From contig JACPIQ010000068.1 in assembly GCA_016188005.1 (NCBI GenBank), positions 124,001 through 188,000 of the forward strand: a stretch of DNA of 64,000 nucleotides, given 5' to 3'. The stretch is from Candidatus Rokuibacteriota bacterium. GTDB taxonomy: Bacteria > Methylomirabilota > Methylomirabilia > Rokubacteriales > CSP1-6. Made by a program: the position numbers and the translations under genes. A model generated the notes under the pieces. It saw only the letters and a program-made list of their open reading frames with translations, was not told where the DNA came from and made no database searches. Shown here in pieces: positions 30,870 to 64,000 of the stretch (positions within the stretch are counted from its first letter, which is position 1; each line of letters starts with the position of its first letter).

Positions 30870-30874
30870 CCAGG

Positions 30875-33955: not shown

Positions 33956-33961
33956 GAGATC

Positions 33962-35637: not shown

Positions 35638-35638
35638 C

Positions 35639-37537: not shown

Positions 37538-37570
37538 TGCACCGTCCCGGGAAGTCGCCAGCCGACTACG

Positions 37571-37717: not shown

Positions 37718-37754
37718 CGGACCGCCGGCGCATTCCTGCGAGAGGGCACTAGCC

Positions 37755-43948: not shown

Positions 43949-43964
43949 GGCACACGGCCTGAGC

Positions 43965-46333: not shown

Positions 46334-46376
46334 TGCGTGTGCTCGTCGGATCCGGCGGCGCGCGGCGAGGCGCGCG

Positions 46377-47783: not shown

Positions 47784-49221
47784 ACGGCTGCTGAACGTCG
47801 AGGACGACGAGGACATCCGGACCCAGCTCAAGTACGCGCTCCAGGAGCAGTACCAGGTGACCCTCGCGGAGAACAGAAGGGAGGCTCTCGCGGCGGTGCG
47901 CGAGCTCCAGCCCTCTGTCGTGACGCTGGATCTCGGCCTGCCGCCGGAGCCGGACTCGGCCGGGGAGGGGCTCAAGGCGCTCGAGGAGATCCTCGACGTC
48001 GCCCCCGGGATCAAGGTCGTCGTCATCACGGGTAACAGCGACCGCGCCAACGCGCTCAAGGCCGTGGACCTCGGCGCCTTCGACTTCCACCTCAAGCCCG
48101 TGAACCTGGACGACCTGCGCGTGGTCCTCGGCCGGGCCACCTATCTGCGCCAGCTCGAGCGCGAGAGCGAGCAGCGGACGCGCCAGGAGGAGCGGGCGGT
48201 CAGCTTCCGCGACATCCTGGGCACGACGCAGAAGATGCGCGAGATCTTCAACGTCATCAGCCGCGTGGCCAAGACCGACGCCACCGTCCTCATCGAAGGA
48301 GAGAGCGGGACGGGCAAGGAGCTGATCGCCCGCGCCATCCACACCAGCAGCCCGCGCCGGAACGCGCCCTTCGTGGCCATCAACTGCGGGGCCATCCCCG
48401 AGACGCTCCTCGAGAGCGAGCTGTTCGGCCACGAGAAGGGCTCCTTCACGGGCCCCTTCGTGGCCATCAACTGCGGGGCCATCCCCGAGACGCTCCTCGA
48501 GAGCGAGCTGTTCGGCCACGAGAAGGGCTCCTTCACGGGCGCTCACGTCCAGCGCAAGGGCAAGATCGAGGTCGCCTCGGGCGGGACGCTGTTCCTCGAC
48601 GAGATCGGCGAGATGAGCGTGCCGCTGCAGGTCAAGCTCCTGCGCTTCCTCCAGGAGCGGGAGATCGAGCGGGTGGGCGGCCGCGAGCCGATCCGGATCG
48701 ACGTGCGCGTGCTGGCCGCCACCAACAGCCACCTCGAGCAGGGCATCCAGAAGGGGACGTTCCGGGAAGACCTCTTCTACCGCCTGTCGGTCGTCGCCAT
48801 CCGGGTGCCCCCGCTCCGGGAGCGGGGGGAGGACATCGTCCTCCTGGCCAACGTCTTCCTGCGCCGGGCCGGACAGACCATGAAGCGCAAGACGCGGTTC
48901 AGCGCGGCGGCCCTCGAGGCCCTCGTGCGCTATCCGTGGCCGGGGAATATCCGGGAGCTGGAGAACAAGGTGCAGCGCGCCGTCATCATGACCACGGGCC
49001 GCACCATCGAGCCGGCCGATCTGGAGCTCTCCGCCGCCGCCGACGCGCCCCTGCCGACGCTCCGCGAGGCCCGCTCGGGGCACGAGCGAAAGCTCGTGAT
49101 CGACGCCCTGGCGCGGAGCGGGGGCAACATCAGCCGCGCGGCGCAGTCCGTCGGGGTGAGCCGCCCCACGTTCCACGAGATGCTGGCCCGGCACGGTATC
49201 GACGCCAAGGCGTTTCGCTGA
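47773..49221 (+). CDS. prsR: Sigma-54 response regulator PrsR with duplicated GAFTGA region
   Basis: Partner of PrsK. The receiver (about 1-125) has VEDDEDI, the phospho-acceptor Asp in VVTLDLGLPP and Lys in FHLKPVN. The AAA+ domain has Walker A GESGTGKE, Walker B LFLDEIGEM, FREDLFYRL and WPGNIRELEN, then a Fis-type HTH (GGNISRAAQSVGVSRPTFHEML). Residues 199-227 and 228-256 are an exact tandem copy of a 29-residue stretch containing ELFGHEKGSFTG, the loop that touches sigma-54. The first copy ends GSFTGP and the second GSFTGA. Without the copy the length would be 453, the normal size. It is 87 bases (in frame), so the product is full length but may not activate transcription normally. Confidence 0.92.
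   Translation: MDRERLLNVEDDEDIRTQLKYALQEQYQVTLAENRREALAAVRELQPSVVTLDLGLPPEPDSAGEGLKALEEILDVAPGIKVVVITGNSDRANALKAVDLGAFDFHLKPVNLDDLRVVLGRATYLRQLERESEQRTRQEERAVSFRDILGTTQKMREIFNVISRVAKTDATVLIEGESGTGKELIARAIHTSSPRRNAPFVAINCGAIPETLLESELFGHEKGSFTGPFVAINCGAIPETLLESELFGHEKGSFTGAHVQRKGKIEVASGGTLFLDEIGEMSVPLQVKLLRFLQEREIERVGGREPIRIDVRVLAATNSHLEQGIQKGTFREDLFYRLSVVAIRVPPLRERGEDIVLLANVFLRRAGQTMKRKTRFSAAALEALVRYPWPGNIRELENKVQRAVIMTTGRTIEPADLELSAAADAPLPTLREARSGHERKLVIDALARSGGNISRAAQSVGVSRPTFHEMLARHGIDAKAFR
48367..48540 (+). repeat. Perfect 87-bp tandem duplication inside prsR
   Basis: Bases 48367-48453 and 48454-48540 are identical. The unit encodes 29 residues from PFVAINCG to GSFTG. The lack of any synonymous difference indicates a very recent event or an assembly artefact. 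Confidence 0.95.
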
Positions 49222-49243
49222 TGCCCGCATCACCCTCCCGTCC

Positions 49244-50473
49244 ATGAACCCGGTGCCGGCGGCGGCGGCGCTGACATTCCGGGACATCCAGCTCGGACAG
49301 CGGTTCGAGATCGAGCGGACGTTCACCGCCGACGACGTGGAGCGCTTCGCCGCCCTCAGCGGCGACTGGAGCCCCCTGCACGTGGACCCCGCCTACGCCG
49401 CCTCCACGGAGTTCGGTGGCTGCGTCCTCCACGGCATGCTGCTGGCCTCGCTCTTCTCCCGGCTGGTCGGGATGCACATCCCGGGCGCTGCCGCTCTCTA
49501 CCTGGGCCAGGATCTCGCCTTCCGGCGTCCCGTGCTCGTCGGGGAGAGGGTGCAAGCCTCGGCGAAGGTGACGGCCAAGAACGAGGCGACGGCGACCCTG
49601 GCGCTCGCCACGGAGATCCGCAACGAGGCGGGACTGGTGGTCGTGAGCGGCGCGGCCAAGGTGAAGGTGCGCGGCGCGCGCCCCGGCCCGGAGGCCGCCG
49701 CGCCTCCGCCCCCGGCGCACCCGGACGCGGGCAGGCGTGTGGCCCTCGTGACGGGAGCCTCCCGGGGGATCGGCGGGGCCATCGCGCGGAGGCTCGCCGC
49801 CCGGGACATCGCCGTGGCCGTCAACTACCACCAGCGCGCCGACCGCGCCCAGCAGCAGGTCCGGGACATCCGGCAGGCAGGCGGGCATGCCGTCGCCGTC
49901 CAGGCCGACGTGCGGGAGCCTGATCAGGTCTCGCGCATGGTCAGGACCGTCGCCGACGAGCTGGGCGGCCTGAGCCTGGTGGTCAACGCCGCCATCGGGG
50001 GGCTCGAGCAGCACCGATTCGTCGACCTCGACTGGGCCGCCTTCCAGCAGCAGCTCGACTACCAGCTCAAGGCCGTGGTCCACGTCTGCCAGGCCGCCTA
50101 TCCCCTCCTCAAGGCCGCAGGGGGTGGCGCCATCGTCAACGTGCTGTCTCAGGCCGCCTCCGGTGTGCCGCCCGCGCTCATGGCGGACTACGTGGCCGCC
50201 AAGTATGCGCTTCACGGCCTGTCCAAGGCCCTCGCCGTCGAGTGGGCCGCCGACGGTGTCCGCGTCAACACGGTCTCGCCCGGGCTGACGCGAACGGATC
50301 TGACCGAGCACTATCCCGACCGCGTGTTCAAGATGGAGGCCGCCCGCGTTCCCCTGCGCCGGCTCGCGAGCCTCGAGGACGTGGCGAGTGCGGTGGCCTT
50401 CATGCTGAGCGACGAGTCCGCCTTCCTGACCGGCGTCGACGTGCCGGTCTCCGGCGGCCAGGTGATGCCGTGA
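49244..50473 (+). CDS. MaoC-like hydratase fused to short-chain dehydrogenase/reductase
   Basis: A 409-residue fusion. Residues about 10-145 form a MaoC hot-dog domain with SGDWSPLHVDPAYAASTEFGG and VLHGML, the catalytic Asp/His region of (R)-specific enoyl hydratases. A Pro/Ala-rich linker (PEAAAPPPPAHP) follows. Residues about 163-409 form a FabG-like SDR with ALVTGASRGIGGAIA, VVNAAIGG, Ser in NVLSQAAS and the YVAAK Tyr-Lys pair. The two activities could run enoyl to 3-hydroxyacyl to 3-oxoacyl or the reverse on CoA or ACP thioesters. The SDR could instead act on another hydroxyacyl. Next to a CapK ligase and ahead of an ACP, it suggests supply of a hydroxyacyl group. Confidence 0.88.
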   Translation: MNPVPAAAALTFRDIQLGQRFEIERTFTADDVERFAALSGDWSPLHVDPAYAASTEFGGCVLHGMLLASLFSRLVGMHIPGAAALYLGQDLAFRRPVLVGERVQASAKVTAKNEATATLALATEIRNEAGLVVVSGAAKVKVRGARPGPEAAAPPPPAHPDAGRRVALVTGASRGIGGAIARRLAARDIAVAVNYHQRADRAQQQVRDIRQAGGHAVAVQADVREPDQVSRMVRTVADELGGLSLVVNAAIGGLEQHRFVDLDWAAFQQQLDYQLKAVVHVCQAAYPLLKAAGGGAIVNVLSQAASGVPPALMADYVAAKYALHGLSKALAVEWAADGVRVNTVSPGLTRTDLTEHYPDRVFKMEAARVPLRRLASLEDVASAVAFMLSDESAFLTGVDVPVSGGQVMP

Positions 50474-50492
50474 CCTGCGGCGGAGACAACCG

Positions 50493-51770
50493 GTGAGAGT
50501 CGGGACGGTCGCGCGAATCGCGCTGCGGGCGGGCCCGCGGGAGCGGTACTGGGCGCTCCGGCGCCACATCTCCCGGCTGGCGTTCCTGGGCCAGCCCCGG
50601 AGACGCCCTTTCGCCCGCGTGCTCGCCCGGGACTACCTGCGCTTCGCGCTCGGCGCTGCGCGGCCTGTCCGGGGGGAGGGGCGCCAGCGCGCCGAGGCCG
50701 CCGTGGGCTGGCTCCTCCGGGCGCAGTCGGTCACCCCGGACGACGGCGTCTCGCTCGGGTACTTTCCGTGCCTTCCGGACACCACTGCCGGCTGGCTTCC
50801 CTCGTACCCGGAGACCACGGGCTACATCATTCCCTCCCTCCTCGAGTTCGCCGAGGTGTTCGGCCGGGACGATGTCCGGCAGCGTGCGCTCCGGATGGCC
50901 GCCTGGGAGATCCAGGTCCAGATGCCGTCGGGCGCGGTCCAGGGCGGCACCGTCTGCGCCCCCGACCGGCAGGTGCCCGCCGTGTTCAACACGGGCATGG
51001 TGTTGCACGGATACACCGCGGCCTACCGGGCCACCGGCGAGACAGGCTTCCTCGAGGCAGGCCGGCGGGCCGCCGATTTCCTCGTGGCCGACCTGGACGG
51101 TGACGGGCACTTCCGCTCCCACGGCACCTTCGTGGCCCAGCACCGCATCAAGACCTACAACTGCCTCTGTGGCTGGGCCCTCTGGCGCTTCGCCGAGGAC
51201 TCCGGCGACGACCGCTACGCCAAGGTCGCCCTCAGGGCCGCCGAGGCGGCGGCCGGCCAGCAGCACCCCAACGGATGGTTCGCGAACAACTGCCTGACGG
51301 ACCCCGAGGCGCCGCTGACCCACACCATCGGATACACCCTGCAGGGGCTCCTCGAGATCGGCCTTCTCGCGGGGCGCCAGGATCTGGTGGACGCTGTCCG
51401 GAGTGGCCTCGCGCCGCTCATCGGGCGGATCTCGCGCGGGGGCTTCCTCCACGGGTGCTTCTTCTCCAACTGGGAGCCGGCCACGTTCTCCTCGTGCCTG
51501 ACGGGGAGCGCCCAGCTCGCCGTCGTCTGCTTGCGGCTCTCCCAGCAGACGTCAGAGCCCGGGTACCGGACGGCGGCCGACCGCCTGCTCGACCATCTCA
51601 AGGCGCACCAGCTCCTGGGCTCACCGGATCCCGCGCTGGACGGCGCCATCGGGGGCTCGTTCCCGCTGCTCGGAAGCTACATGACGGCGGGCTATCCGAA
51701 CTGGGCCACCAAGTACCTCCTCGACGGCCTGCTCCTGCAGGAGCGCCTGGGCCCGAACAGCGGCACATGA
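50493..51770 (+). CDS. Six-hairpin (alpha/alpha barrel) glycosidase-like protein, cytoplasmic
   Basis: The 425 residues contain repeated helical hairpins: AVGWLLRAQSVTPDDGVSLGYFP, PSYPETTGYIIPSLLEFAEV, AAWEIQVQMPSGAVQGG, NTGMVLHGYTAAYRATGETGFLEAGRRAADFLV (in parts), YNCLCGWALWRFAEDSGD, LTHTIGYTLQGLLEIG and GSAQLAVVCLRLS. This is the (alpha/alpha)6 toroid of six-hairpin glycosidases and related lyases or epimerases. No catalytic set is clear and there is no signal peptide, so it may act on lipid-linked intermediates in the cytoplasm. The GTG start follows a GCGGAGA site. It is coupled to the AAC(3)-like gene by ATGA. Confidence 0.7.
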   Translation: MRVGTVARIALRAGPRERYWALRRHISRLAFLGQPRRRPFARVLARDYLRFALGAARPVRGEGRQRAEAAVGWLLRAQSVTPDDGVSLGYFPCLPDTTAGWLPSYPETTGYIIPSLLEFAEVFGRDDVRQRALRMAAWEIQVQMPSGAVQGGTVCAPDRQVPAVFNTGMVLHGYTAAYRATGETGFLEAGRRAADFLVADLDGDGHFRSHGTFVAQHRIKTYNCLCGWALWRFAEDSGDDRYAKVALRAAEAAAGQQHPNGWFANNCLTDPEAPLTHTIGYTLQGLLEIGLLAGRQDLVDAVRSGLAPLIGRISRGGFLHGCFFSNWEPATFSSCLTGSAQLAVVCLRLSQQTSEPGYRTAADRLLDHLKAHQLLGSPDPALDGAIGGSFPLLGSYMTAGYPNWATKYLLDGLLLQERLGPNSGT

Positions 51771-52645
51771 GCACCGCGGCGCGGGGGATCGTGGCTCTCC
51801 TCCCGAAGGGAGCCAAGGAGCGGCTCAAGGGATGGCGCAAGCGGCTGCGGCTGGCCTATCTCCGCCGCTGGCGGGCCTTCGGGCCCGACGACCTGGCGGC
51901 CGCGGTCCAGCGACTCGGCGTCGCCCCGGGCGACGTGGTGATGGTTCACAGCTCTTTCGACCGGTTCGCGGGGTTCGCCGGCAAGCCCACCGACGTGCTC
52001 CGCGTGCTCCAGGAGGCGGTGGGCCCCACCGGCACCCTGCTGATGCCGACGCTCCCCTTCACCGTGACCGCCGTCGAGTACGTGTCGCGAGGGGAGATCT
52101 TCGACGTCCGGCGGACGCCCTCGCGGGTCGGCCTGCTCACCGAGCTGTTCCGCCGCTCCGCGGGCGTCGTGCGCAGCGTCCACCCGACCCACCCGGTGGC
52201 GGCCTGGGGGGCCCGCGCGGCGGAGATGATCGCCACTCACCACCTGGCGCGGACGCCCTGCGGTGAAGGCAGTCCCTTTGCGCGGCTCCTCGAGCGGGAC
52301 GGCCGCGTCCTCTTCCTGGGGGCGGACATCGACTCGATGACGCTCTTCCACTGCGTCGAGGAGATGCTCGAGCCGGGCATGCCGATCTCGCCCTTCACGA
52401 AGGACGAGATCGCCCTCGAGAGCCGGGACGAGACGGGCGGAATCCTCCTGACCAAGACGCGTCTCTTCGATCCTGCGGTGTCGCGCCGACGGAACCTCGA
52501 GAAGCTCCGTCCCGTCCTCCGGCAGCGGGGCAGGTGGGCGCAGGGCCGGGTGGGCGGACTTGACCTGATCCTCCTCAACGCGCGAGACGTCCTGGCGGCG
52601 GGCCGCTGGCTCGCCGAGCACGGAGTGTACTGCTATGACGCATGA
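51767..52645 (+). CDS. AAC(3)-family N-acyltransferase (probable sugar acyltransferase)
   Basis: The 292 residues have the antibiotic N-acetyltransferase (AAC(3)) fold. Seen are GVAPGDVVMVHSSFDRF, VGPTGTLLMPTLPF, TPSRVGLLTELFRRSAGVVRSVHPTHPVAAWG (in parts), TPCGEGSPFARLLERDGRVLFLGADIDSMTLFH (in parts) and the catalytic His region HPTHPVAAWG. Members inside polysaccharide loci transfer acyl groups from thioesters to amino sugars rather than causing drug resistance. Position between the alpha/alpha-barrel and FkbH/ACP genes supports that here. I therefore do not read it as a resistance gene. Confidence 0.84.
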   Translation: MSTAARGIVALLPKGAKERLKGWRKRLRLAYLRRWRAFGPDDLAAAVQRLGVAPGDVVMVHSSFDRFAGFAGKPTDVLRVLQEAVGPTGTLLMPTLPFTVTAVEYVSRGEIFDVRRTPSRVGLLTELFRRSAGVVRSVHPTHPVAAWGARAAEMIATHHLARTPCGEGSPFARLLERDGRVLFLGADIDSMTLFHCVEEMLEPGMPISPFTKDEIALESRDETGGILLTKTRLFDPAVSRRRNLEKLRPVLRQRGRWAQGRVGGLDLILLNARDVLAAGRWLAEHGVYCYDA

Positions 52646-54533
52646 CGCATCGACCGCGGCCGAGGCCCGCCGCGCCCTCCGTGCGGCTCTCGACGGCAGC
52701 GACCTCGCGGCGGCCAGGCGGGCGGCCCGGACACTGCTGGGCCAGCCCTCCCAGGGAGCCGCGGCGGCCTTCATCCGCCGGGCGATCGAGAACGCAGCGG
52801 CGGAGCGTCTGGGGCTCGCCCCGCTGAGGGTGGCCCTCCTCTCGTCCTTCTCCATCGAGTTCATCCACGACCTGCTGATCGCGCTGGGCTTCCTCGAGGG
52901 GCTGCACCTGCAGATCCACCAGGCGGGCTTCTCCCAGTTCCGCCAGGAGCTCCTCGGCGCGGACTCCGGCCTCTACGCCTTCTCCCCCGATGTCGTCGTG
53001 CTCGCCCTGGAAGGCAAGGACGTCGCCCCCGTGCTGTACGCCCACGAGGCGCCGGAGGGCGACGACCGCCTCGGGCAGGCGGTGGCCGAGGCCGGGCAGG
53101 AGCTGGCCACGCTCGTGAGGGCGTTCCGCGACCGCTCGGCCGCGACGCTCCTGGTCCACAACTTCGCCCCGCCCACGTGGCGCCACCTCGGGATCCTCGA
53201 TGGGCACCTCGGCCCCGGCCAGGCCGAGATGGTCGGCATGCTCAACGCCGAGCTGGCCCGCCTCTGCCGCGAGACCCGAGGCGCCTACGCCGTCGACTAC
53301 GCGGGTCTCGTCCACCGCGCGGGCGCGCTCCGGTGGTACGACGACCGGATGGATCACTACGCGAAGGCCCCGATCGGGCAGGCGGTGCTGCCGGAGCTGG
53401 CCCGCGAGCACGTGAAGTTCTTCCGCGCGCTGGCCGGAAAGGCCAAGAAGTGCCTCGTCCTCGACCTCGACAACACGCTGTGGGGAGGGATCCTCGGCGA
53501 GGACGGGCCCACGGGGATAAAGCTCGGACCCGACTACCCCGGGAGCGCCTACGTGGCCTTCCAGCGGGCGATCCGCGGCCTCCGCCAGCGGGGCGTCATC
53601 CTGGCCGTGGCCAGCAAGAACAACCCCGACGACGTCGACGAGCTCCTCGCCACGCATCCGCACATGGTGCTGCGCCCGCAGGACTTCTCCGTCCTCCGCG
53701 TCGGCTGGGGCGCCAAGAGCCGGTCTCTCGCAGAGATCGCCGCGCACCTCAACATCGCCCTCGACCACGTGCTCTTCGCCGACGACAATCCCGCCGAGTG
53801 TGACGAAGTCGCCCATGCCCTGCCGGCGGTGACCGTCCTGCCCCTGCCCGCGCGGCCGGAGCACTTCGTCCGGGCCCTCCTCGAGCCCGGGTACTTCGAC
53901 GGCCTGAGCGTCTCCGCCGAGGATCTCCGGCGCGCCGAGCTGTACCAGCAGCGCGACCAGGCCGAGGCGCTCCGCGCCGAGAGCGGCTCGCTGGAGGACT
54001 TCTACCGGCGGCTCGAGATGGAGGTGATCCTCGCCCCGGTGCGCGACGGCTCGGTGGCGCGTGCGGCGCAGCTGACCCAGAAGACGAACCAGTTCAACGT
54101 GACGACCATCCGGTACAGCGAGGCGGACCTCCTCGAGCGCCAGGCGAGCCCGGCGTGGCTGGTGCGTACGGTCCAGGTGCGGGACCGCTTCGGCGACAAC
54201 GGCATCGTCGGCGTCGTGATGGCACGCGCCGAGGCCGACGAGATGGAGGTCGACTCGCTCCTGCTCAGCTGCCGCGTGATCGGGCGCACCGTCGAGACGG
54301 CGATGCTGGCGCACGTGTGCGAGCACGCGCTCCGCCTGGGCAGCCGGCGTGTCCGCGGTCGCATCGTTCCCACGGCCAAGAACCTCCCGGTCCGCGATCT
54401 CTACCTGCGCCACGGTTTCCGCCGCGAGTCCGGCGAGGAGCCCGGGGAGACCTCCTGGATCCTCGACCTCGCCGGGGAGCCCGTCCGGCATCCCGACTGG
54501 ATGAAGGTCGTCTCGGACCCCTCCGCGCGCTGA
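52635..54533 (+). CDS. FkbH-like HAD-IIIC protein
   Basis: The 632 residues comprise an N-terminal SGNH-like segment (about 65-270; ALLSSFSIEFIHDLLIALGF, ALEGKDVAPVLY, LVHNFAPPTWRHLG) and a HAD phosphatase core with CLVLDLDNTLWGGILGEDG (DxDxT), VASKNNPDDV and LFADDNPAEC. A C-terminal GNAT-like part follows (TQKTNQFNVTTIRYSEADL, VRDRFGDNGIVGVVMA, HVCEHALRLGSRRVRGRIVPTAKN in parts). FkbH proteins load a glyceryl unit from 1,3-bisphosphoglycerate onto an ACP by phosphate removal, so a glyceryl-ACP precursor is plausible. The ACP gene follows 59 bases downstream. The gene overlaps the AAC(3) gene by 11 bases. Confidence 0.88.
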   Translation: MTHDASTAAEARRALRAALDGSDLAAARRAARTLLGQPSQGAAAAFIRRAIENAAAERLGLAPLRVALLSSFSIEFIHDLLIALGFLEGLHLQIHQAGFSQFRQELLGADSGLYAFSPDVVVLALEGKDVAPVLYAHEAPEGDDRLGQAVAEAGQELATLVRAFRDRSAATLLVHNFAPPTWRHLGILDGHLGPGQAEMVGMLNAELARLCRETRGAYAVDYAGLVHRAGALRWYDDRMDHYAKAPIGQAVLPELAREHVKFFRALAGKAKKCLVLDLDNTLWGGILGEDGPTGIKLGPDYPGSAYVAFQRAIRGLRQRGVILAVASKNNPDDVDELLATHPHMVLRPQDFSVLRVGWGAKSRSLAEIAAHLNIALDHVLFADDNPAECDEVAHALPAVTVLPLPARPEHFVRALLEPGYFDGLSVSAEDLRRAELYQQRDQAEALRAESGSLEDFYRRLEMEVILAPVRDGSVARAAQLTQKTNQFNVTTIRYSEADLLERQASPAWLVRTVQVRDRFGDNGIVGVVMARAEADEMEVDSLLLSCRVIGRTVETAMLAHVCEHALRLGSRRVRGRIVPTAKNLPVRDLYLRHGFRRESGEEPGETSWILDLAGEPVRHPDWMKVVSDPSAR

Positions 54534-56009: not shown

Positions 56010-56051
56010 CTGACGCTTCCGGGGCCGGGCCGCGCCGGACACGGGCGTCAG
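56010..56051. terminator. Hairpin between convergent genes
   Basis: CTGACGC (56010-56016) pairs with GCGTCAG (56045-56051), and inside it TCCGG pairs with CCGGA. The structure sits exactly between two convergent glycosyltransferase genes and includes the stop of the minus-strand one. It has no T tract, so its efficiency as an intrinsic terminator is doubtful. Confidence 0.35.
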
Positions 56052-57319
56052 GCTGCCGGCCCCGGTCCTCGCACCAGCCGGTCGAAGTGCCGGGCCAGCT
56101 CGGCCGTCAGCTGCGCCCTGCTGAAGCCCTGGAGCCGCCCCGCACTCGCCGCCATCCCGCCGAGATGGCCGGCCCGCCAGGCCGCGCAGGCCGCGACGAG
56201 CGCCTGGCGCAGCCCGGCTCCGTCCCTGGGATCCACGGCCCAGCCGCCACCCACCTGCGCGAGCACCTCCGTGGTGGCGCCGGGCCGGACCACCGCGAGG
56301 ACCGGCCGTCCGGCGCGCAGGTACTCGAAGAGCTTCGCGGGCACCAGGTCGACCGTGTCGGCCGACGCCTGCAGCAGGAGAAGCATGTCGGCGCCGGTGA
56401 GCTCGCGCAGGGCCGCGTCGTAGGGCACCCGCGGGAGGAACTGCACCCGTCCCGTCAGCCCGGCCGCTGTCACCGCGCCGGCCACAGCGGCCGACTCACC
56501 GTAGGGCCCGCCGCCCAGGAACCTGAACCGCAGCCGGCCCGGATCGATGTCCCCCGCCGCCACGGCCTCCCCCACCGCCTCGAAGACCGGCCGGGGGTCG
56601 CGGAACTCGGCATTGACGTTGCCGGCGTGGACCACGACCAGCTCGTCTCCCGACGACCGCTCGGCCAGCGGCAGCGCGGTGAAATCGGCCTCGTCGAAGC
56701 CGTTCGGGATGGCGGCGAACTTGACCGGGGGCTCGTCGGGATAGCGCGCCGCGAGCACGTCCCGCAGCCGACGGGTGCTGCCGATCACGAGGGCGGCCCG
56801 GCGAACCACCATGCGCTCGAGCCGCCGCGCCGCCCTGTGCACCACCCGGGGCGTGCCGGGCTCCGGCGGATCCTCGTACCACGGGTCACGGAAGTCCGTC
56901 ACCCAGGGAACACGTCCCGTGCGCGCCAGCGAGGCGGCGATGAGATGCGCCGTGGCGTGGGGACTGGTCGAGTAGATGAGCTCCGGCGGGTCGTCCCTGA
57001 GAATACGCCTCCCGGCCCTCACCCCCCATGGCCACCAGCCGATCCACCGGTCGGGAATGGCCGTCAGCGCCAGGTGCAGGCCCCTCACGGACAGATGGCG
57101 CTTGCTGTCGAGATAGGCCGTGCGGACGACGCGCACCTCGGGCGGGACCTGACGCATGAGCGCCGGGTCCACCACCTCGTAGGCGTCCGGGCGCACGGTC
57201 AGCACCGTCACCCGCCAGCCATGGGCGCCGAGGTAGCGCGTGTACTTGAGCGTACGGAGGACGCCGCTGCTGCTGGACTCCGGCGGGTAATGGAAGGCGA
57301 CGAAGAGGGCGTGCCTCAT
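56048..57319 (-). CDS. GT4-like glycosyltransferase
   Basis: The 423 residues have a GT-B fold. They show ALFVAFHYPPESSSSGVLRTLKYTRYL (in parts), VTVLTVRPDAYE, LIYSTSPHATAHLIAASLA, VTDFRDPWYEDPPEP, VIGSTRRLRDVLAARYP, FAAIPNGFDEADF, VHAGNVNAEFRDPRPV and PAKLFEYLRAGRPVLAVV. This resembles the WbuB/fucosyl-type GT4 group in EPS loci. It ends the minus-strand block begun at 61120 and lies 29 bases after the beta-helix gene. It is probably co-transcribed with the secreted protein genes upstream. Confidence 0.86.
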   Translation of the reverse strand: MRHALFVAFHYPPESSSSGVLRTLKYTRYLGAHGWRVTVLTVRPDAYEVVDPALMRQVPPEVRVVRTAYLDSKRHLSVRGLHLALTAIPDRWIGWWPWGVRAGRRILRDDPPELIYSTSPHATAHLIAASLARTGRVPWVTDFRDPWYEDPPEPGTPRVVHRAARRLERMVVRRAALVIGSTRRLRDVLAARYPDEPPVKFAAIPNGFDEADFTALPLAERSSGDELVVVHAGNVNAEFRDPRPVFEAVGEAVAAGDIDPGRLRFRFLGGGPYGESAAVAGAVTAAGLTGRVQFLPRVPYDAALRELTGADMLLLLQASADTVDLVPAKLFEYLRAGRPVLAVVRPGATTEVLAQVGGGWAVDPRDGAGLRQALVAACAAWRAGHLGGMAASAGRLQGFSRAQLTAELARHFDRLVRGPGPAA

Positions 57320-57348: not shown

Positions 57349-58641
57349 TCAGGGCTTGATGCCCAGGGGAACGGGGCCGGCAGCGCGCTCGATCGCGCCC
57401 GGAATCGGGGCCACGCCCCTCCGGACGCCGAAGAAGTCGTCGCCTGGCTGGAGCAGGCGCGTCCCCGCGCCCGCGGTCCCATGCCCCAGCGCCGACCCTG
57501 CGAGCGGGGAGAAATCACCCGCCTCCGGCCGGGCGAAGCACGCCGTGACCGAGCAGTCCACGTTGCCCGCCAGCGTCACGCCCGTCCGCTGGAGGGGGAG
57601 GGCCGGCGTGCCCGCCCGGGCGTTCACGGCGTTGTTGACGATGACGACCTCCAGGGGGCCATTGCTGGGGAGCTGGATCCCCGCCGCTCCGTTGGCGTAG
57701 ATCGTGTTGTGCGCCACGACCACGCCCCGCAGCCAGCCGCGGCCCCGGAAGTCCTCGAGGCCGATGCCGGCCACGGCATTCCCCACGGCGATGTTGTTCC
57801 GGACCACGGCCGGCCCACCCCCGACCACGATGCCCGACGAGCTCCGGGAGCCCATGACCAGGTTGCGCTCGACGAGACTCGGGCCTCGCGCCTCGCCGGC
57901 GCCGTACACCATGATCCCCGGCCCCTTGGTGTCCACGATCACGTTGTCCCTGACGATCCCGGACGAGTTGGCCTTGATCTGCACACCGTAGCCGATCTGC
58001 GGGTCCGGAGCTGTCACGTCCCGGACGAAGTTCCGCTCCACGAGCAGGTCCGAGACCGTGCACGACCGGCCGTCGTGGCAGCCGAAGTACATGGCGGTGG
58101 TCCACGGGGAGAGGATCTCGTTCCGCCGAACGGTCAAGCCCCGCACGCTGGCGTGGTTGGCCACCACGGCGATGCCGCCCGGCCCGAGGAAGCGACACTC
58201 CTCGACGGTCACCTCCTCGCCGCCGAACACCCTGACCGCGTCCACGCCGGGGAGGCTCGGACCGAACTCGAGGCCCCGGACGATCACGTGGCTGGCGCGG
58301 ATCTCGAGGACGTTGGAGGTCGAGCCCTGGTAGACGATGCGCGGGCGGCGCGCGGGATCGGCGGCGCGCAGCACGACCGGCGCCCCCGGCGCCCCCCCGG
58401 CGCGGATCCCGCACGGCCCCTGGTAGTCCCCGGCGCGAAGCGACAGCTCCTCTCCGGGCTTCAGCATCCGCAGGGCGGCGCACCAGTCTGCCCCCGGCCC
58501 GATCTCGCCCCCCGCGGCGGGCCGCGCGGCGCCCGCCGCGGCCGCCGCCACGAGCAGCCACTGCGCGAACACCCGCCACACGACGGGCCTGCGCGGCCGA
58601 CGGAGATGGGCCGCTCGCGATCGGCGAGCCGGCTCCCTCAT
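57349..58641 (-). CDS. Secreted right-handed beta-helix repeat protein
   Basis: The 430 residues start with a signal/anchor segment (VFAQWLLVAAAAAGAARPAAGG after an Arg-rich n-region). From about residue 70 there are repeated short strands: VLEIRASHVIVRGLEFG, VTVEECRFLGPGGIAVVANHASVRGLTVRRNEI (in parts), LLVERNFVRDV, GIVRDNVIVDTKGPGIMVYG, AVVRNNIAVGNAVAGIG and VVVAHNTIYANGAAGIQL. This is the parallel beta-helix pattern of polysaccharide lyases, epimerases and glycosidases (NosD/CASH class). It could be a uronate epimerase or lyase acting on the polymer in the periplasm. The start overlaps the previous gene by 4 bases, and I see no catalytic motif that settles the reaction. Confidence 0.82.
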   Translation of the reverse strand: MREPARRSRAAHLRRPRRPVVWRVFAQWLLVAAAAAGAARPAAGGEIGPGADWCAALRMLKPGEELSLRAGDYQGPCGIRAGGAPGAPVVLRAADPARRPRIVYQGSTSNVLEIRASHVIVRGLEFGPSLPGVDAVRVFGGEEVTVEECRFLGPGGIAVVANHASVRGLTVRRNEILSPWTTAMYFGCHDGRSCTVSDLLVERNFVRDVTAPDPQIGYGVQIKANSSGIVRDNVIVDTKGPGIMVYGAGEARGPSLVERNLVMGSRSSSGIVVGGGPAVVRNNIAVGNAVAGIGLEDFRGRGWLRGVVVAHNTIYANGAAGIQLPSNGPLEVVIVNNAVNARAGTPALPLQRTGVTLAGNVDCSVTACFARPEAGDFSPLAGSALGHGTAGAGTRLLQPGDDFFGVRRGVAPIPGAIERAAGPVPLGIKP

Positions 58642-59879
58642 CGGCCGGGCTGCGGGCGCGCCGCTGGCCTGTACACCCGGACGTTCTGGTCGATGCCGTT
58701 CACGACGAGGAACACCCCCCGCGAGCGGGAGAAGCGAAAGCGGCCGAAGGTGCCGTTGGGCGGCGCGGGGGTCATGACGGCACCGCCCCCGGTCTCCACG
58801 GTCACGGCGCCGGTGTCGGGATCGACGAAGTACACCCTGTTGCCGCCCCCGTAGGCCGCGTAGCGGTCGCCCACGGGATCGTGGGCGAAGCCGGGAGCGT
58901 AGAGCTGGGGCCACGGCGCCCCGCCGAGTCGCAGAGCCCGGCGCTTCAGGCTTCCCTCCCGCCCCGCCGCGAAGTCGTAGTAGAAGAGGCCGCGCGGCCC
59001 TGCCATCACGAAGCGACGGCGCCGGGGGTCGAAGAGCGCGGTATAGAAGCGGTTCGCGGTGTCGTTGGGCTGCTGGCCGTCGTCGAGCGTCGAGTGACGC
59101 GATCCGGGGGGCGCCGAGGGATCGAATGCCCGGAGGCGCCCGGCGTCGTGGTAGAGGACCCGGCTCCGCACCGAGTCCCAGGTCGAGACGATCCCGAGGA
59201 AGTAGGCGGGCAGCGGATCGCGCGCCAGGTACTCCCAGCGCTTCGCGGGATGGTCCCAGAGGAACACGTCGTTGATCTCGGCCCCGGCCCACCACCGCGA
59301 CCCGCCCGCCACCCACGTCCTGTTCACGCTGGGCATGTGGGTGAGCCCATTGTAGGTGTGGCGGGAGGCGGGGTAGACGCCGTTGGCATCCGTGTACCTG
59401 CTCGGGGGGGGCGTCGAGCTCTTGGGGTCCGACTCCTGCGGGCCCAGTCGCTGGAGGTACGGGATCAGCCCGACGGTGGGATCGAACTCCCGCCGCCAGC
59501 GCCGCGCGGCGAGGTCGAAGGCGTAGACCTCGTTGCCGGCGTAGTCACTGTCGCCCCCGGCGGCCAGGATGAACAGGAGATCGCGAGCCTCGTCCCAGGC
59601 GGCGCCGTTCCAGGCGGTCACGATGGACGCGGGGCCGCCGGATCCCTTGAGAGCGCTGAGGCTCCTCCCGGCACCGTCTCGCCAGAGCACCGAGTCCAGC
59701 CTGGTGTCCGGCAGCTCGACCCAGGTGCCGGGCGGAACGTCCGGGAACGCCCTCTCCGCGCCCACTCGCGGCCCGAGGAGCGCCCAGACCAGCCCCGCAG
59801 CCAGCAGCGCCAGACAGCTCCGCCACGCGACCGGCGCCCGAGCGGGGAGGCTCCTCGCGGGCCCCCGGCCCGCCCTCAC
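58638..59879 (-). CDS. Secreted kelch/beta-propeller-like protein 1
   Basis: The 413 residues have an N-terminal hydrophobic segment (WRSCLALLAAGLVWALLG). Blades are marked by aromatic and Gly-rich repeats: LLFILAAGGDSDYAGNEVYAFDLAARRW (in parts), PASRHTYNGLTHMP, RTWVAGGSRWWAGAEINDVFLWD (in parts), GIVSTWDSVRSRVLYHDAG, RRFVMAGPRGLFYYD and YAAYGGGNRVYFVD. This resembles kelch or galactose-oxidase-type propellers, but no copper ligand set is apparent. The GTG at 59879 overlaps the previous stop. It is a paralogue-like partner of the gene at 59876. The function is unknown; glycan binding is a guess. Confidence 0.72.
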   Translation of the reverse strand: MRAGRGPARSLPARAPVAWRSCLALLAAGLVWALLGPRVGAERAFPDVPPGTWVELPDTRLDSVLWRDGAGRSLSALKGSGGPASIVTAWNGAAWDEARDLLFILAAGGDSDYAGNEVYAFDLAARRWRREFDPTVGLIPYLQRLGPQESDPKSSTPPPSRYTDANGVYPASRHTYNGLTHMPSVNRTWVAGGSRWWAGAEINDVFLWDHPAKRWEYLARDPLPAYFLGIVSTWDSVRSRVLYHDAGRLRAFDPSAPPGSRHSTLDDGQQPNDTANRFYTALFDPRRRRFVMAGPRGLFYYDFAAGREGSLKRRALRLGGAPWPQLYAPGFAHDPVGDRYAAYGGGNRVYFVDPDTGAVTVETGGGAVMTPAPPNGTFGRFRFSRSRGVFLVVNGIDQNVRVYRPAARPQPGR

Positions 59880-61120
59880 GGCCCGTCGCCGTAGCGGTAG
59901 AGGAACAGGTGGGACGTCTCCACGTGGCTCCCGAAGAGCACGGTCACGTTGTGGAGCGGGTCGTACACCGCCACGCGCCCACCCGGCCTCACGCCCGGAA
60001 CGTCCCCCGCGAGAGGAATCGTCTCCCACGTCCGCGTCGTCGGATGATAGGCGTTTGCGCCCGGCGGATCGTAGCGGAACCACAGCAACACCTTGCTCGT
60101 CGAGTCCCAGACCACGTACATGTAGTTCTCGCGTCCATGAGGCCCGCCCGGCACAGCTCCCAGGTCCTCCATCGCCTGCGTATCCATTCGATACCGGTAC
60201 AGGCGGCCCGCCACGCCGTCGATCGCGTAGATGACCCGCTCGGCGTGGTCCACCGCGAGGTACTCCTTGTTGATCCGGATCTCGCGCCGCCCGGCGCCGG
60301 CCGATAGCGACCGGTTCACCCACCGGTCCTCGCCGATCCGGTAGGTGGACACCATCGCGCCACCGCCTCCGCTGTAGCCGAACCGGATGAGCGAGTCGTT
60401 CTTGGGGTCGTACACGGACATCCACGTCTCGACGGACTGCCCCACGTTCCCGCTGACATCCCGCCACTGCCGCGCCGCCGGGTCGAACTGCATGATCCGG
60501 TTGAGCCTGAACCCGGGGTCGCTGGTGCGGGCGCCGGTCTCCCCCGGACAGTTGGCCGTGCCCACCTCCATCACACCCGGCACCATCCAGAAGACCTTCC
60601 GCTTCGAGTCCCAGGTCCAGCCCACGAAGTCCGGGTGCTTCGGCTGCATCTGGCCGGCCGGGCCGCAGTACGGGTACTCGAGCCTCCACCCCGCGTTGCG
60701 GTCAGCGCGGCTCGCCCACCGCTCCCCCAGCGACAGGGACCAGGTCTCCTGCCGGTAGGACTGGTCGAACTCGGTTCCCCTGTAATCGCCGCCCGTCATG
60801 TAGATCCGGCCGTCGTCGGGGTTGTGAGCAGCCGTGAGGTGCTTGATCGGGCCCATGGGACCGCGGCCCCTGAGCGGCATCTCCAGCCCCACCCACTGCT
60901 TGAGCGGGATGTCGACCCGACCCACCGTCCGGGACTGCTCCGCGATCGCAATCGAAGCGGCCACGATCGCTGCGAGGGCGATCGTGATCGTGACGAACGC
61001 CGCTCGTCCCACCGCGCGCCGCCGTTCAGCCGCCGGGGAAGGTGCGTGACGGCCGCACCGACCCGCTCCGGGTCCGCCGCCGAGATCCGTCGTCGCGGCC
61101 CGGGGCGTCAGATCGCGCAT
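59876..61120 (-). CDS. Secreted kelch/beta-propeller-like protein 2
   Basis: The 414 residues have a membrane/signal segment (about 40-62, AAFVTITIALAAIVAASIAIA) after an Arg-rich start. Propeller-like repeats follow: IKHLTAAHNPDDGRIYMTGGDY, ETWSLSLGERW, FVGWTWDSKRKVFWMVPG, QFDPAARQWRDVS, MSVYDPKNDSLIRFGYSGGGG, YLAVDHAERVIYAIDG and VWDSTSKVLLWFRYDP. It is similar in layout to the next gene. It is the first gene of the minus-strand block and lies divergent from the jelly-roll gene at 61306. It is probably exported; the ligand is unknown. Confidence 0.72.
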   Translation of the reverse strand: MRDLTPRAATTDLGGGPGAGRCGRHAPSPAAERRRAVGRAAFVTITIALAAIVAASIAIAEQSRTVGRVDIPLKQWVGLEMPLRGRGPMGPIKHLTAAHNPDDGRIYMTGGDYRGTEFDQSYRQETWSLSLGERWASRADRNAGWRLEYPYCGPAGQMQPKHPDFVGWTWDSKRKVFWMVPGVMEVGTANCPGETGARTSDPGFRLNRIMQFDPAARQWRDVSGNVGQSVETWMSVYDPKNDSLIRFGYSGGGGAMVSTYRIGEDRWVNRSLSAGAGRREIRINKEYLAVDHAERVIYAIDGVAGRLYRYRMDTQAMEDLGAVPGGPHGRENYMYVVWDSTSKVLLWFRYDPPGANAYHPTTRTWETIPLAGDVPGVRPGGRVAVYDPLHNVTVLFGSHVETSHLFLYRYGDGP

Positions 61121-61222
61121 TTTTTTCGCAGCCTCCGCATCGCCGTCGGCAGCGCCGCGTTCCCACGTGTCCGCACGCTCCCGACGGGCACGCCCGCGGG
61201 CGGCGACAGGCGCTGGAATCCA

Positions 61223-61251
61223 TCGGCATCAGTGGCTCTCTCCCGTATACT
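61223..61251 (+). promoter_or_regulatory. Candidate sigma-70-type promoter for the jelly-roll gene
   Basis: TCGGCA (61223-61228) and TATACT (61246-61251) are separated by 17 bases. The -10 match is good (5 of 6) and the -35 fair (4 of 6). It lies in the 185-bp divergent gap, 55 bases before the TTG start at 61306. Confidence 0.4.
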
Positions 61252-61305
61252 ACACTTGCGTCTTCGAGGAGCCACCCCTTCTCGCCGAGGAGCCCGACAC
61301 TGAGC

Positions 61306-62406
61306 TTGAGGCTCGCGATCCTGACCGCGCTCGCCATCGCGCTGTGGCCGGCCAACCCGGCCCTCGCCCTCCCTCCCGGCTGCGAGAGCGAGACAGGTCT
61401 CGCCGCCCGCCAGGACGTCGTGTTCTGCGAGCCGTGGGAGGAGTCGGGCTGGTGGACGCGCGGCTACGTGGGAAACCCGCGGCTCCTCGACCCCGCTCCG
61501 GCCACGGCCGGCAACGTCCAGCGGACCGCCCTCGAGACCGAGGGGTGCATCTCGGGCAAGTGCCTCCGGGTGAACATGCTCAAGGGGCAGACCGGGGCGC
61601 TGAGCTTGCACTGGCCGCTCAAGAACGCCGGCCTCGCGCCCGAGCAGCTCTCCATGCGCTACTACATCAAGCTCGGTTCCACCTGGGAGCCGAACATGTG
61701 CGACGACAAGGGGGCGATCGTCGGTCACGGAGGGAAGTTCCCCGGCCCCGCCGACACCAGGGTCAATGGCGATCCAGCAGCCCCGGGCGGCCAGTGTGGG
61801 AACGGGGGGGAGCGGGGCGACGGCATCAACTGCTGGTCCCATCGGGCGGAGTTCCGCGCCTGTGGCCGGCACGGCGGCTTTACCAAGGGCGTCTGCTCGA
61901 CGAAGCCGGGAGCCGTGATGCGGTTCGGCGGCTACATCTACTACTACGGCCAGGACGGGGGCACCGGCAGCGCCGCCCCGTGGGACTCGGACTACTGGGG
62001 CCAGTTCGACACGGGCGGAGGCACCTGCGAGAGGAATCCGCGGAACCTCTTCTGCAGCGCGCCGCGAGCCAGGCGCGGGGTGAACAGCAACGAGCGGACG
62101 GGCCTGGCGATGAACGCCGGGGTGTTCGTGCGGGAGGTCTGGTACGCCGTCGAGACCTTCGTGAAGATGAACACTCCGGGCGTCGCGGACGGGATCATCC
62201 GCGGGTGGGTGGATGGGCAGCTCGCCTACGAGAAGACCAACATGGTCTTCCGGATCCCCGGCCATCAGAACCTGCACGTCCGCACCGCCTGGCTGGACGT
62301 CTACAAGGGAGGCACCCAGGGCAATTGCCGCGACATGCACATCTGGCTGGATCAGATGGTGCTGGCCACGGACGGGCCCATCGGACCGATGCCCGGAGCC
62401 AGATGA
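61306..62406 (+). CDS. Secreted jelly-roll polysaccharide-lyase-like protein
   Basis: The 366 residues start with a signal peptide (RLAILTALAIALWPANPALA). Many cysteines follow (e.g. GCESETG, CISGKCLRVNM), suggesting disulphides. Strands include LSMRYYIKLGSTWEPNMCDDKGAI and VREVWYAVETFVKMNTPGVADGIIRGWVDGQLAYEKTNMVFR (read in parts). The 'W..xExxxxxNTPG..DGxxxxWxDG' pattern is that of PL14-like alginate lyase or lectin-like beta-jelly-rolls. Starts: TTG 61306 is preferred; GAGGAG (61287-61292) is 13 bases away, closer to a CTG at 61300. It may cleave or bind uronate polymers. Confidence 0.72.
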   Translation: MRLAILTALAIALWPANPALALPPGCESETGLAARQDVVFCEPWEESGWWTRGYVGNPRLLDPAPATAGNVQRTALETEGCISGKCLRVNMLKGQTGALSLHWPLKNAGLAPEQLSMRYYIKLGSTWEPNMCDDKGAIVGHGGKFPGPADTRVNGDPAAPGGQCGNGGERGDGINCWSHRAEFRACGRHGGFTKGVCSTKPGAVMRFGGYIYYYGQDGGTGSAAPWDSDYWGQFDTGGGTCERNPRNLFCSAPRARRGVNSNERTGLAMNAGVFVREVWYAVETFVKMNTPGVADGIIRGWVDGQLAYEKTNMVFRIPGHQNLHVRTAWLDVYKGGTQGNCRDMHIWLDQMVLATDGPIGPMPGAR

Positions 62407-63650
62407 AGATCCTCTTCGTCTGCCACCGGCTGCCATTCCCGCCGAGCCGCGGCGGCAAGATCCGGCCCTTCAACATCATCCGCCACCTGAGCCGCCGGCA
62501 CGAGGTCACGGTCGCCTCGCTGGCCCGCTCGGCCGAGGAAGCCCGGGCCGGGCGTGGGCTCGAGCAGCACTGCGCGCGCCTCCTCGTGGAGACCGTGTCG
62601 GTCCCTGCCGCGCTGGCACGGATGCTGGCCCGCCTTCCGACGCCAGCCCCCTCGTCCATGGGCTACTTCCACTCACCCTCCCTGTCCCGCCGGATCCGCC
62701 AGGCCGTGCCGGACACCCGTTTCGACCTCGTCTTCGTGCATTGCGCCTTCGTGGCGCCCTACGTGGCCGATCTCCACGGCATGCCGAAGATCCTGGACTT
62801 CGGCGACATGGACTCCCAGAAGTGGCTGACCTACGCGCGGGTGCGCCGCTTCCCGCTGTCTCTGGGGTACCGGCTCGAGGGGCTCAAGCTCCAGGCCGCC
62901 GAGCGCCGGCTGGCGGCACAGTTCGACCTCTGCACGTGCACCACGCAGGCGGAGCTCGACACGCTCAAGGGCTACGGGATCGCCGCGGCGACGGGCTGGT
63001 TCCCCAACGGCGTGGACACCGAGTACTTCCAGCCGACCACCGCGCCCTATGACCCCGACCGCATCAGCTTCATCGGGCGCATGGACTACTATCCGAACCA
63101 GGAGTGCATGGTCGACTTCTGCCGGACGACGTGGCCGCTCATCCGCGCCCGGCGCCCGGCGACGACGCTCTGCATCGTGGGTGCTGCCCCGTCCCGCGAG
63201 ATCCTCGGCCTGGGCCGCCTCCCCGGAGTCACGGTGACGGGCTCGGTGCCCGACGTACGCCCCTTCGCCCACGCCTCGGCGGCCACGGTGGCGCCGCTCA
63301 GGATCGCCCGGGGCACCCAGAACAAGATCCTCGAGGCCATGGCCATGGGGATTCCGACCGTCACCAGCCCGGTGGCCGCCCGCGGCGTCGATGCCGAGCC
63401 GGGCCGCCATCTCGTCACGGCCTCCACGCCCGAGGAGTACGCGGCGGCGTTGCTCCGCCTCATGGCGCAGCCAGCCGAGCGCCTGGCGCTCGGCGCCGCG
63501 GCGCGCGCCCGCGTCCTCTCGCATCACGGCTGGGCCCGTTCCATGGAGATGCTCGACGGGCTCCTGGCCGGGCTCCCGAGCGCGCCGGACCGCGTGGAGA
63601 CGGCGCCCGCCAGCGCGCGTCTGAAGTCGCGACGGAGAGCGAGCACATGA
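62403..63650 (+). CDS. GT4-type glycosyltransferase of exosortase loci, second copy
   Basis: The 415 residues show ILFVCHRLPFPPSRGGKIRPFNIIRHLS (in parts), KILDFGDMDSQKWLTYA, GWFPNGVDTEYFQP, FIGRMDYYPNQECMVDFC, VTGSVPDVRPF and LRIARGTQNKILEAMAMGIPTVTSPVAARG (in parts). The DFGD-D-S motif and overall layout match TIGR03087, the same family as the gene at 21605. ATGA overlaps join it to the jelly-roll gene and to the dehydrogenase after it. Confidence 0.88.
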   Translation: MKILFVCHRLPFPPSRGGKIRPFNIIRHLSRRHEVTVASLARSAEEARAGRGLEQHCARLLVETVSVPAALARMLARLPTPAPSSMGYFHSPSLSRRIRQAVPDTRFDLVFVHCAFVAPYVADLHGMPKILDFGDMDSQKWLTYARVRRFPLSLGYRLEGLKLQAAERRLAAQFDLCTCTTQAELDTLKGYGIAAATGWFPNGVDTEYFQPTTAPYDPDRISFIGRMDYYPNQECMVDFCRTTWPLIRARRPATTLCIVGAAPSREILGLGRLPGVTVTGSVPDVRPFAHASAATVAPLRIARGTQNKILEAMAMGIPTVTSPVAARGVDAEPGRHLVTASTPEEYAAALLRLMAQPAERLALGAAARARVLSHHGWARSMEMLDGLLAGLPSAPDRVETAPASARLKSRRRAST

Positions 63651-64000
63651 ACATCAGCATCTTCGGGCTCGGCTACGTCGGCGCCGTCTCGCTGGCCTGC
63701 CTCGCGCGGGACGGCCACAAGGTGATCGGCGTGGACATCGACGGCTCCAAGCTCGACCTGATCCGCCGGGGCCAGACGCCCATCGTGGAGGAGGGCATGC
63801 AGCGGCTCATGCGGGAGGTCGTGGCCAGCGGCCGGGTCCACGTCACCGACGATGCCGCCTTCGCCGTGCACAACTCCGATCTCTCCTTCGTCTGCGTGGG
63901 CACGCCCGCGCGCCGCAACGGCAGCCAGGATCTCAGGGCGCTCGAGCGGCTCGCGGCGCAGCTCGGCGCGGCCCTGCGCTCGAAGCCGGCATACCACGTG
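63647..64000 (+). CDS. GDP-mannose/UDP-glucose 6-dehydrogenase family protein, 3'-truncated
   Basis: The first 118 residues are present; the frame is open at the window end. The N terminus ISIFGLGYVGAVSLACLARDGHKVIGVDID has the NAD-binding GxGYVG, and SDLSFVCVGTPARRNGSQDL follows. 'GLGYVGAVSxxCLxxDGH' is characteristic of AlgD-like GDP-mannose 6-dehydrogenase rather than of the UDP-GlcNAc type at 16279. If so, GDP-mannuronate would be a second uronic acid precursor. The active-site Cys lies outside the window. Confidence 0.85.
   Translation, partial: MNISIFGLGYVGAVSLACLARDGHKVIGVDIDGSKLDLIRRGQTPIVEEGMQRLMREVVASGRVHVTDDAAFAVHNSDLSFVCVGTPARRNGSQDLRALERLAAQLGAALRSKPAYHV

Follow-up and report, generated by a model that had tools for sequence, protein, structure and literature searches.

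Four Genes in Two Divergent Operons

The window analyzed here is a stretch of 64,000 nucleotides (nt), positions 124001–188000 of contig C68 in the 5.37-Mb draft genome of a Candidatus Rokuibacteriota bacterium, and we focus on four genes in it, called A, B, C, and D, which lie at 57349–62406. A first-pass annotation had described a beta-helix protein, two propeller-like proteins, and a protein resembling polysaccharide lyase family 14 (PL14) at this place, all with signal segments. Pfam matches and modelled relatives confirmed the four genes and these assignments, and a hydrophobic N-terminal stretch was found in all four proteins (13-residue mean of 1.9–2.8, vs. 0.95–1.4 from residue 70 on), which are probably secreted; no NCBIfam model scored over its cut-off for any of them. 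The block is made of two operons with overlapping genes, which diverge from 61013–61305: on the minus strand C, B, A, and then, probably in the same operon, a GT4 glycosyltransferase gene (56048–57319); on the plus strand D, a TIGR03087 glycosyltransferase gene (62403–63650), and an AlgD-like gene starting at 63647. The genes of the block and their overlaps are as follows (aa, amino acids):

57349..58641, minus strand: gene A, right-handed beta-helix, PL31/PL6-like, 430 aa; Pfam Beta_helix, 72.8 bits (cut-off 25.9)
58638..58641, minus strand: ATGA overlap of B stop and A start, 4 nt
58638..59879, minus strand: gene B, Kelch-type beta-propeller (predicted), 413 aa, GTG start; homologue of the N-terminal half in B-C fusion proteins
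59876..59879, minus strand: GTGA overlap of C stop and B start, 4 nt
59876..61012, minus strand: gene C, Kelch-type beta-propeller (predicted), 378 aa from GTG 61012; Kelch_6; homologue of the C-terminal half in B-C fusion proteins
61306..62406, plus strand: gene D, PL14-family protein, 366 aa, TTG start; PF21294 (Polysacc_lyase_14), 34.3 bits (cut-off 27)
62403..62406, plus strand: ATGA overlap of D and the TIGR03087 glycosyltransferase gene

The start codon is not certain for C, where both GTG 61012 and ATG 61120 are candidates, or for D (TTG 61306), and the long open reading frame (ORF) starts at 59316 and 60689 in the program listing were not used as gene starts.

Linkage of A, B, and C in Other Genomes

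We conclude that A, B, and C belong together, because relatives carry them fused in single proteins. The comparison used genomes (labelled G) and loci extracted from them or from other records (labelled L), with metagenome-assembled genomes (MAGs) named as in their records. A B-C fusion, with B first, is present in two class relatives, G036, a genome of the same order as the window's, and G004 (L012 and L013), and in a Nitrospirae MAG (L019). An A-type gene adjoins the B-C gene in L013 and L019, this neighbor being a homologue of A in G004 and a beta-helix gene in the Nitrospirae MAG. G020 has the genes for B and C side by side, with A on a different contig. Longer fusions also exist: a single 1680-aa ORF of an Azambacteria-labelled MAG (L020) spans B, C, and beta-helix domains; in a Kiloniellaceae MAG (L024), B is fused to a beta-helix; and a G011 protein cut at a contig end (L040) joins the last part of a B domain to an A domain through repeats that by eye resemble Ig domains. 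The Nitrospirae, Azambacteria-labelled, and Kiloniellaceae loci come from one scan of GTDB contigs, which returned seven loci in all, one of them the G036 contig again; in the other three we saw B and no C.

Among 95 genomes of the class, including the window's own, C was found in four and B in five (E 1e-3), and A in six (E 1e-20); one of the B genomes counts through a 43-position match at a contig end, and two of the A genomes through a remnant and a gene cut at a contig end, respectively. All four C genomes have B, and four of the five B genomes have A. The hypergeometric chance of such overlaps, which ignores phylogeny, is 1.6e-6 for C with B and 2.3e-5 for B with A, or 3.0e-5 and 2.9e-4 when the window's own genome is left out. 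In a sample of 245 Nitrospirota genomes taken from a larger group, the C profile matched one, which was already known. As for their surroundings, A or B-C genes have PrsT as a neighbor in L012, L052, and L053, with a PEP-CTERM protein as well in the first two, and glycosyltransferase-like ORFs, judged by eye, occur near related loci. L053 belongs to the same-genus genome G001, in which only a C-terminal remnant of A (L053:2433–2741) is left, about 6 kb from PrsT.

Taken together, the sequence comparisons support a single functional unit made of A, B, and C, three separate genes for domains that elsewhere lie in one chain.

Genes B and C as Kelch-Type Propellers

C barely passes the Kelch_6 cut-off (25.6 vs. 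25.3 bits) and B stays under every Pfam cut-off; their sequence matches to solved chains are only partial. Their assignment as Kelch-type propellers is carried over from the model of a relative, the B-C protein of L018 (predicted local distance difference test, pLDDT, 77; predicted TM-score, pTM, 0.51), in which the mutual placement of the two halves is unreliable. Both halves of this model are Kelch propellers, with VIA Z scores of 25.5 (B half) and 25.4 (C half) over 277–285 residues and root-mean-square deviations of 2.8–3.4, so that the window proteins are predicted to share the fold. Conserved motifs are GGGHxDYxGNEVY and HTY in B, and KH, GGD, and PD in C. We rejected the idea that B and C are recent duplicates, as they share no useful similarity (E 0.025). 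No propeller lyase of the PL24/PL25 type was among the matches listed for B, C, and the L018 B-C protein, which does not imply their exclusion.

Propellers of the B type also occur in virus contigs and a prophage (L039 and L056–L075, of which 19 IMG/VR loci came from one scan and L056 from another); the former scan gave 61 pattern matches in IMG/VR, and 19 of these encode B-half relatives, some of which look like mutual copies, with equal scores. B-linker-C fusions are found in two phage-associated cases, L039 and L056. The former is a distant, 1091-aa protein of G004 (L039:6507–9779) that scores 73 bits with the B profile and 102 and 70 bits with the C profile, and whose linker contains an InlB-type repeat; its prophage-like contig also encodes a phage head/protease protein (E 3e-200) and an exonuclease of the RecE type, and an IMG/VR contig encodes a copy 64% identical to it. 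In the three of these 19 IMG/VR contigs whose neighboring genes were scanned, the neighbors are, respectively, portal and scaffold genes, head-tail adaptor and tail terminator genes (weak), and head protease and virion genes. The presence of this propeller family among phage structural genes suggests recognition of surface glycans, and the propeller may be a glycan-facing part of the virion. INPHARED yielded no match to window B, nor to the L039 protein, and a phage origin of window B was consequently rejected; we retain a link to phages at the level of the family and not of this gene.

Gene A: a Beta-Helix with Candidate Lyase Residues

The model of A (393 residues) has a pLDDT of 70 overall and of about 83 over model residues 11–300, the last 88 residues being unreliable. 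With this model, Foldseek ranked the PL31 alginate lyase PsAly (6kfn) first, with a TMt of 0.71, followed by PL6 lyases, chondroitinase B, AlgE epimerases, and RbmB among other matches. By VIA, many beta-helices tie near Z 27–30, including AlgE4, AlgE6, RbmB, and an adhesin, and PsAly is absent from the best 50 matches. Because of these ties, fold alone cannot settle the activity of A.

PsAly's catalytic residues are named as Tyr184 and Lys221 (PMC6796002); we assigned them to positions 150 and 187 of the 6kfn chain by hand count, the numbering being offset by 34, which agrees with Glu181, Glu216, and Asp219 as well. A profile built from six A-type sequences matched 6kfn with an E-value of 2.2e-10 and aligned both catalytic residues, which correspond to Tyr185 and Lys223 of A. 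This pair is kept in seven of eight aligned A-type sequences (the window's own included) from three phylum labels, the beta-helix domain of the Kiloniellaceae MAG having neither residue. We consider Tyr185 and Lys223 as candidate catalytic residues on the basis of this alignment. DPH is the active-site motif of AlgG/AlgE epimerases, and this triplet, typical of mannuronan C5-epimerases, is absent from the sequence of A. Membership of A in PL6 was rejected, as by sequence only the N-terminal cap matches well in the alignments shown; a profile of three Rokubacterial A sequences likewise matched a PL6 lyase in its N-terminal part only.

Gene D and Its AlgD-Like Operon

D would be a jelly roll, as expected from its family membership. 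It is 34% identical to a Halorussus protein that matches PF21294 over positions 7–213 of 215 (69.3 bits), and its matches in the PDB are 6kzk, 6kcw, and 5gmt, with 6kcv reached via the Halorussus protein. Kept between the two proteins are GGKxPG (Lys144 in D), S-x-R (Ser178 and Arg180), and Y-x-Y (Tyr210 and Tyr212), which would correspond to the Lys, Ser-x-Arg, and Tyr-x-Tyr active site of PL14 enzymes such as AkAly30. The Lys, the Arg, and both Tyr of the Halorussus protein align with Aly36B, with the Ser opposite a Thr; the deposited Aly36B chains have Ala at the Lys in two of three cases and at the first Tyr in one of three. A title cited within PMC8618178 describes the Lys of Aly36B as both base and acid. 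On these residues, D is a credible candidate lyase.

The genes and overlaps that follow D are:

62403..63650, plus strand: XrtA-type glycosyltransferase; TIGR03087, 452 bits (cut-off 317)
63647..63650, plus strand: ATGA overlap of the TIGR03087 glycosyltransferase gene and the AlgD-like gene
63647..64000, plus strand, continuing to C68:188960 plus stop: AlgD-like GDP-mannose 6-dehydrogenase; best PDB match 1mfz

Completed from L002, the AlgD-like protein (438 aa) matched the GDP-mannose 6-dehydrogenase 1mfz with 445 bits over residues 1–438, the next best solved enzyme being a UDP-glucose dehydrogenase (229 bits); no AlgD-specific NCBIfam model matched, and NCBIfam goes no further than assigning the protein to the nucleotide sugar dehydrogenase family. 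Its other matches within the genome reach at most 36% identity. The overlaps indicate that D would be cotranslated, via one glycosyltransferase gene, with an AlgD-like GDP-mannose dehydrogenase. The first-pass annotation had imagined action on a uronate polymer, and this idea fits both with that coupling and with the uronate-lyase residues kept in D and A.

A search of plasmids, conducted with D only, returned two Halorussus records. The Halorussus relative of D also has a glycan-synthesis setting: on the Halorussus aquaticus plasmid (L042:2608–3840), the gene for the D-like polysaccharide lyase is flanked by ABC transporter and glycosyltransferase genes, which makes this the second PL14-type protein in such a cluster. 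For PL14-like proteins in G020 (L051), G034, G084, and G097, the match to D or PF21294 is confined to the C-terminal half, and no GGK motif was seen in L051 and L043. The G020 protein (L051:10664–11845) combines Big_2 with a PL14-like part that is below cut-off, has no GGK, and is encoded about 6 kb from an A homologue and near a possible PEP-CTERM protein, itself below cut-offs.

Genomic Setting

Three further features surround the block:

6035..54533 (approximate extent), plus strand: XrtA/PEP-CTERM exopolysaccharide (EPS) locus; NCBIfam cut-offs passed
56048..57319, minus strand: GT4 glycosyltransferase; Pfam Glyco_transf_4, 39.6 bits (cut-off 28.5)
61013..61305, no strand: divergent intergenic region; sigma-70-like site on the plus strand at 61223–61251

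In the EPS locus, PrsR (644 vs. 503), PrsK (421 vs. 300), the exosortase TIGR02602 (160 vs. 106), a TIGR03013 glycosyltransferase, a TIGR03006 deacetylase, FemAB, and a TIGR03097 ligase score over their NCBIfam cut-offs, and FkbH lies at its end; the XrtA-specific model TIGR03109 is below cut-off there (162 vs. 208). The locus also contains three asparagine-synthase-like XrtA amidotransferases (23940–25784, 35639–37537, and 37755–39644), all below the TIGR03108 cut-off. The GT4 glycosyltransferase gene, separated from A by 29 nt, probably shares the C-B-A operon; its product is 35% identical over 413 aa to a glycosyltransferase encoded 0.8 kb from the B-C fusion in the Nitrospirae MAG, where a relative is thus present. 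Within 56000–64000, one sigma-70-like site was observed vs. 0.3 expected. Past the end of the window (L002:5507–6750), ORFs resembling pieces of an insertion sequence (IS) transposase can be seen by eye between two glycosyltransferases.

A Proposed Role in EPS Handling

We propose, with moderate confidence and by reading function from sequence, that the cell's own exopolymer contains mannuronate, is held by the propellers, and is cut by A and D. The two operons would handle the cell's EPS after its export. The AlgD-like enzyme would supply GDP-mannuronate, and the polymer would therefore hold mannuronate; B and C would bind it in the matrix, and both A (through Tyr185/Lys223) and D (through Lys144, Ser178/Arg180, and Tyr210/Tyr212) would cleave it by beta-elimination, which could serve trimming, remodelling, or release. 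The working likeness is with the Bap1/RbmC propellers and the RbmB lyase of Vibrio cholerae. More speculatively, B-C-A may represent an undescribed modular family, made of a double Kelch propeller and a PL31-like beta-helix enzyme, that handles EPS in polysaccharide loci (some with an exosortase) of several phyla, and whose propeller was adopted by phages as a virion component recognizing such polymers; in the window its partner would be a PL14-type lyase, and their substrate an exosortase EPS that contains mannuronate. As a whole, this wider scenario is tentative and rather doubtful.

A number of observations weigh against the proposed role in EPS handling. For A, the match of the six-sequence profile to 6kfn carries 10 bits of composition bias, and 6kfn was missed at E 0.01 by a profile built solely from the three Rokubacterial sequences. 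Furthermore, the cation ligands Glu181, Glu216, and Asp219 of PsAly are Thr, Tyr, and Gln in A, and because this first cation site is not kept, we did not file A as a PL31 member. His154 and Arg156 of PsAly are also not kept in A (alignment read by hand), as in SjAly, an active relative of PsAly that lacks these two residues yet keeps the cation ligands (PMC6796002). For D, the PF21294 match covers only profile positions 120–199 of 215, that is, the C-terminal half; a D profile aligned the Tyr-x-Tyr with Aly36B and had the Lys (GGK) shifted, and the Lys meets the GGKLPG of AkAly30 only within a stretch scoring –0.7 bits, below significance. No AlgD match at E 1e-10 was found across 15 other loci compared. 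The order C-B-A in the window, as opposed to B-C in the fusions, indicates that the genes are not a plain split of a fused gene, and the His of GGGHxDYxGNEVY, kept in the other eight aligned B proteins, is Asp110 in window B. The contig ends about 5 kb beyond the window. Finally, no sigma-54 site was found in the whole window (up to two mismatches, fixed GG/GC), and sigma-54 control of the divergent region was rejected for lack of any such pattern.

The position of D relative to A, B, and C is a separate matter. Full-length D was found in 1 of the 95 class genomes, the window's own, with partial matches in G034 and G084, and the five other genomes with B-type proteins gave a single D match of 40 residues (G097). 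These results also count against a common role. A unit of four genes including D was rejected, since no full-length D accompanies A, B, or C elsewhere in the genomes searched. The interpretation of the first-pass annotation is supported in part: fusions and adjacency make A, B, and C one unit. Its extracellular complex of four proteins is not supported; D, in a separate operon, falls outside the unit. The annotation had made its proposal depend on co-occurrence elsewhere, which we found for A, B, and C and, as far as we searched, not for D. On sequence grounds, the block is more coherent than on first reading for three of its four genes, and D is better seen as standing apart, a probable lyase of the PL14 family with a tie to AlgD.

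Among other explanations, A, B, and C may be only adhesive or structural matrix proteins, the beta-helix having lost catalysis and merely binding the polymer, and D alone, if any of the four, being an enzyme. We hold this to be unlikely, if a serious contender: it agrees with the absence of the PsAly cation ligands in A, with the Kiloniellaceae B-fused beta-helix devoid of the Tyr and Lys, with the Ig-like-looking spacers (by eye) of the L019 and L040 fusions, with the PEP-CTERM proteins beside some relatives, and with the high rank of the adhesin PfbA for A by VIA (Z 28.8), but it leaves aside the conservation of the Tyr and Lys in seven of eight sequences across three phylum labels. That A is instead a uronate C5-epimerase, with D trimming the epimerized chain, seems improbable: AlgE4 and AlgE6 are indeed among its top structural matches (Z 29.7–29.8), but Z does not separate epimerases from lyases in the beta-helix fold, A has no DPH triplet, and its matching residues are those of a lyase.

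We give slightly less credit still to the idea that the set degrades foreign uronate polymers as food and lies near EPS genes by accident. Reviews treat PL14, PL31, and PL6 alginate lyases mostly as alginate degraders (PMC8618178, PMC8286568), but D overlaps EPS biosynthesis genes, and related loci lie beside PrsT, PEP-CTERM genes, or glycosyltransferase-like ORFs (by eye). The same low probability applies to B and C being themselves catalytic, for example as propeller lyases or mutarotase-like enzymes. The strong conservation of GGGHxDYxGNEVY and HTY in B and of KH, GGD, and PD in C would suit such a function, as would the presence of NanM/YjhT among the structural matches (2uvk, Z 21.4); however, eukaryotic binding Kelch domains top the same fold list, and window B has an Asp for the His of GGGH. 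Lastly, four unrelated secreted proteins may be neighbors by chance, as could be argued from the lack of linkage of D to A, B, or C outside its own genome, within the genomes searched. This is highly improbable, being contradicted for A, B, and C by their fusions and conserved adjacency.

To our knowledge, the chemistry of exosortase-linked EPS is mostly unknown, and two candidate lyases with named candidate residues, one cotranslated with an AlgD-like enzyme, make it directly testable. The family of fused propellers and beta-helices is a new matrix module to look for. If lyases do act on a mannuronate-containing exosortase EPS, this would link the PEP-CTERM polysaccharide to alginate-like chemistry.

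Comparison with Known Systems

PrsR, PrsK, the exosortase, and the EPS genes beside the block correspond to the XrtA/PEP-CTERM EPS locus (Haft 2006, PMC1569441), in the main text of which no word begins with kelch, beta-helix, lyase, or propeller. Among the literature matches listed, nothing concerned this gene combination.

At the level of single proteins, A resembles PsAly (PL31, 6kfn) by its beta-helix and by the equivalence of Tyr184/Lys221 to Tyr185/Lys223, and differs from it by the absence of Glu181, Glu216, Asp219, His154, and Arg156. AkAly30 (PL14, 5gmt) and Aly36B (PL36, 6kcv) represent two jelly-roll families that are both matched by the C-terminal half of D. The Tyr-x-Tyr of D aligns with Aly36B directly, its Lys and Arg only via the Halorussus relative, and Aly36B has a Thr where D has Ser178; D exceeds both enzymes in length and, unlike them, has many Cys around the site and a coupling to genes of EPS biosynthesis. 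The two halves of the L018 B-C protein share the fold of the Kelch proteins LZTR1, KLHDC2, and NanM/YjhT, whereas B-C is bacterial, probably secreted, and a tandem pair.

The closest functional parallel is the Vibrio polysaccharide (VPS) set of Vibrio cholerae, in which the Bap1/RbmC propeller binds VPS (PMC10102183) and RbmB is a VPS lyase (PMC11637428). Like that set, the present one would combine secreted propellers that bind the cell's own EPS with a beta-helix lyase that cuts it. As far as tested, the parts share at most their fold, as RbmB does with A (9ozl, VIA Z 28.7), and Bap1/RbmC are likened by analogy. In contrast to the VPS set, the present one has two Kelch propellers, which in relatives are fused together or to a beta-helix, as well as an exosortase locus and a second lyase candidate, of the PL14 type. 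The block would be a variant of the matrix lyases and propellers of EPS loci.

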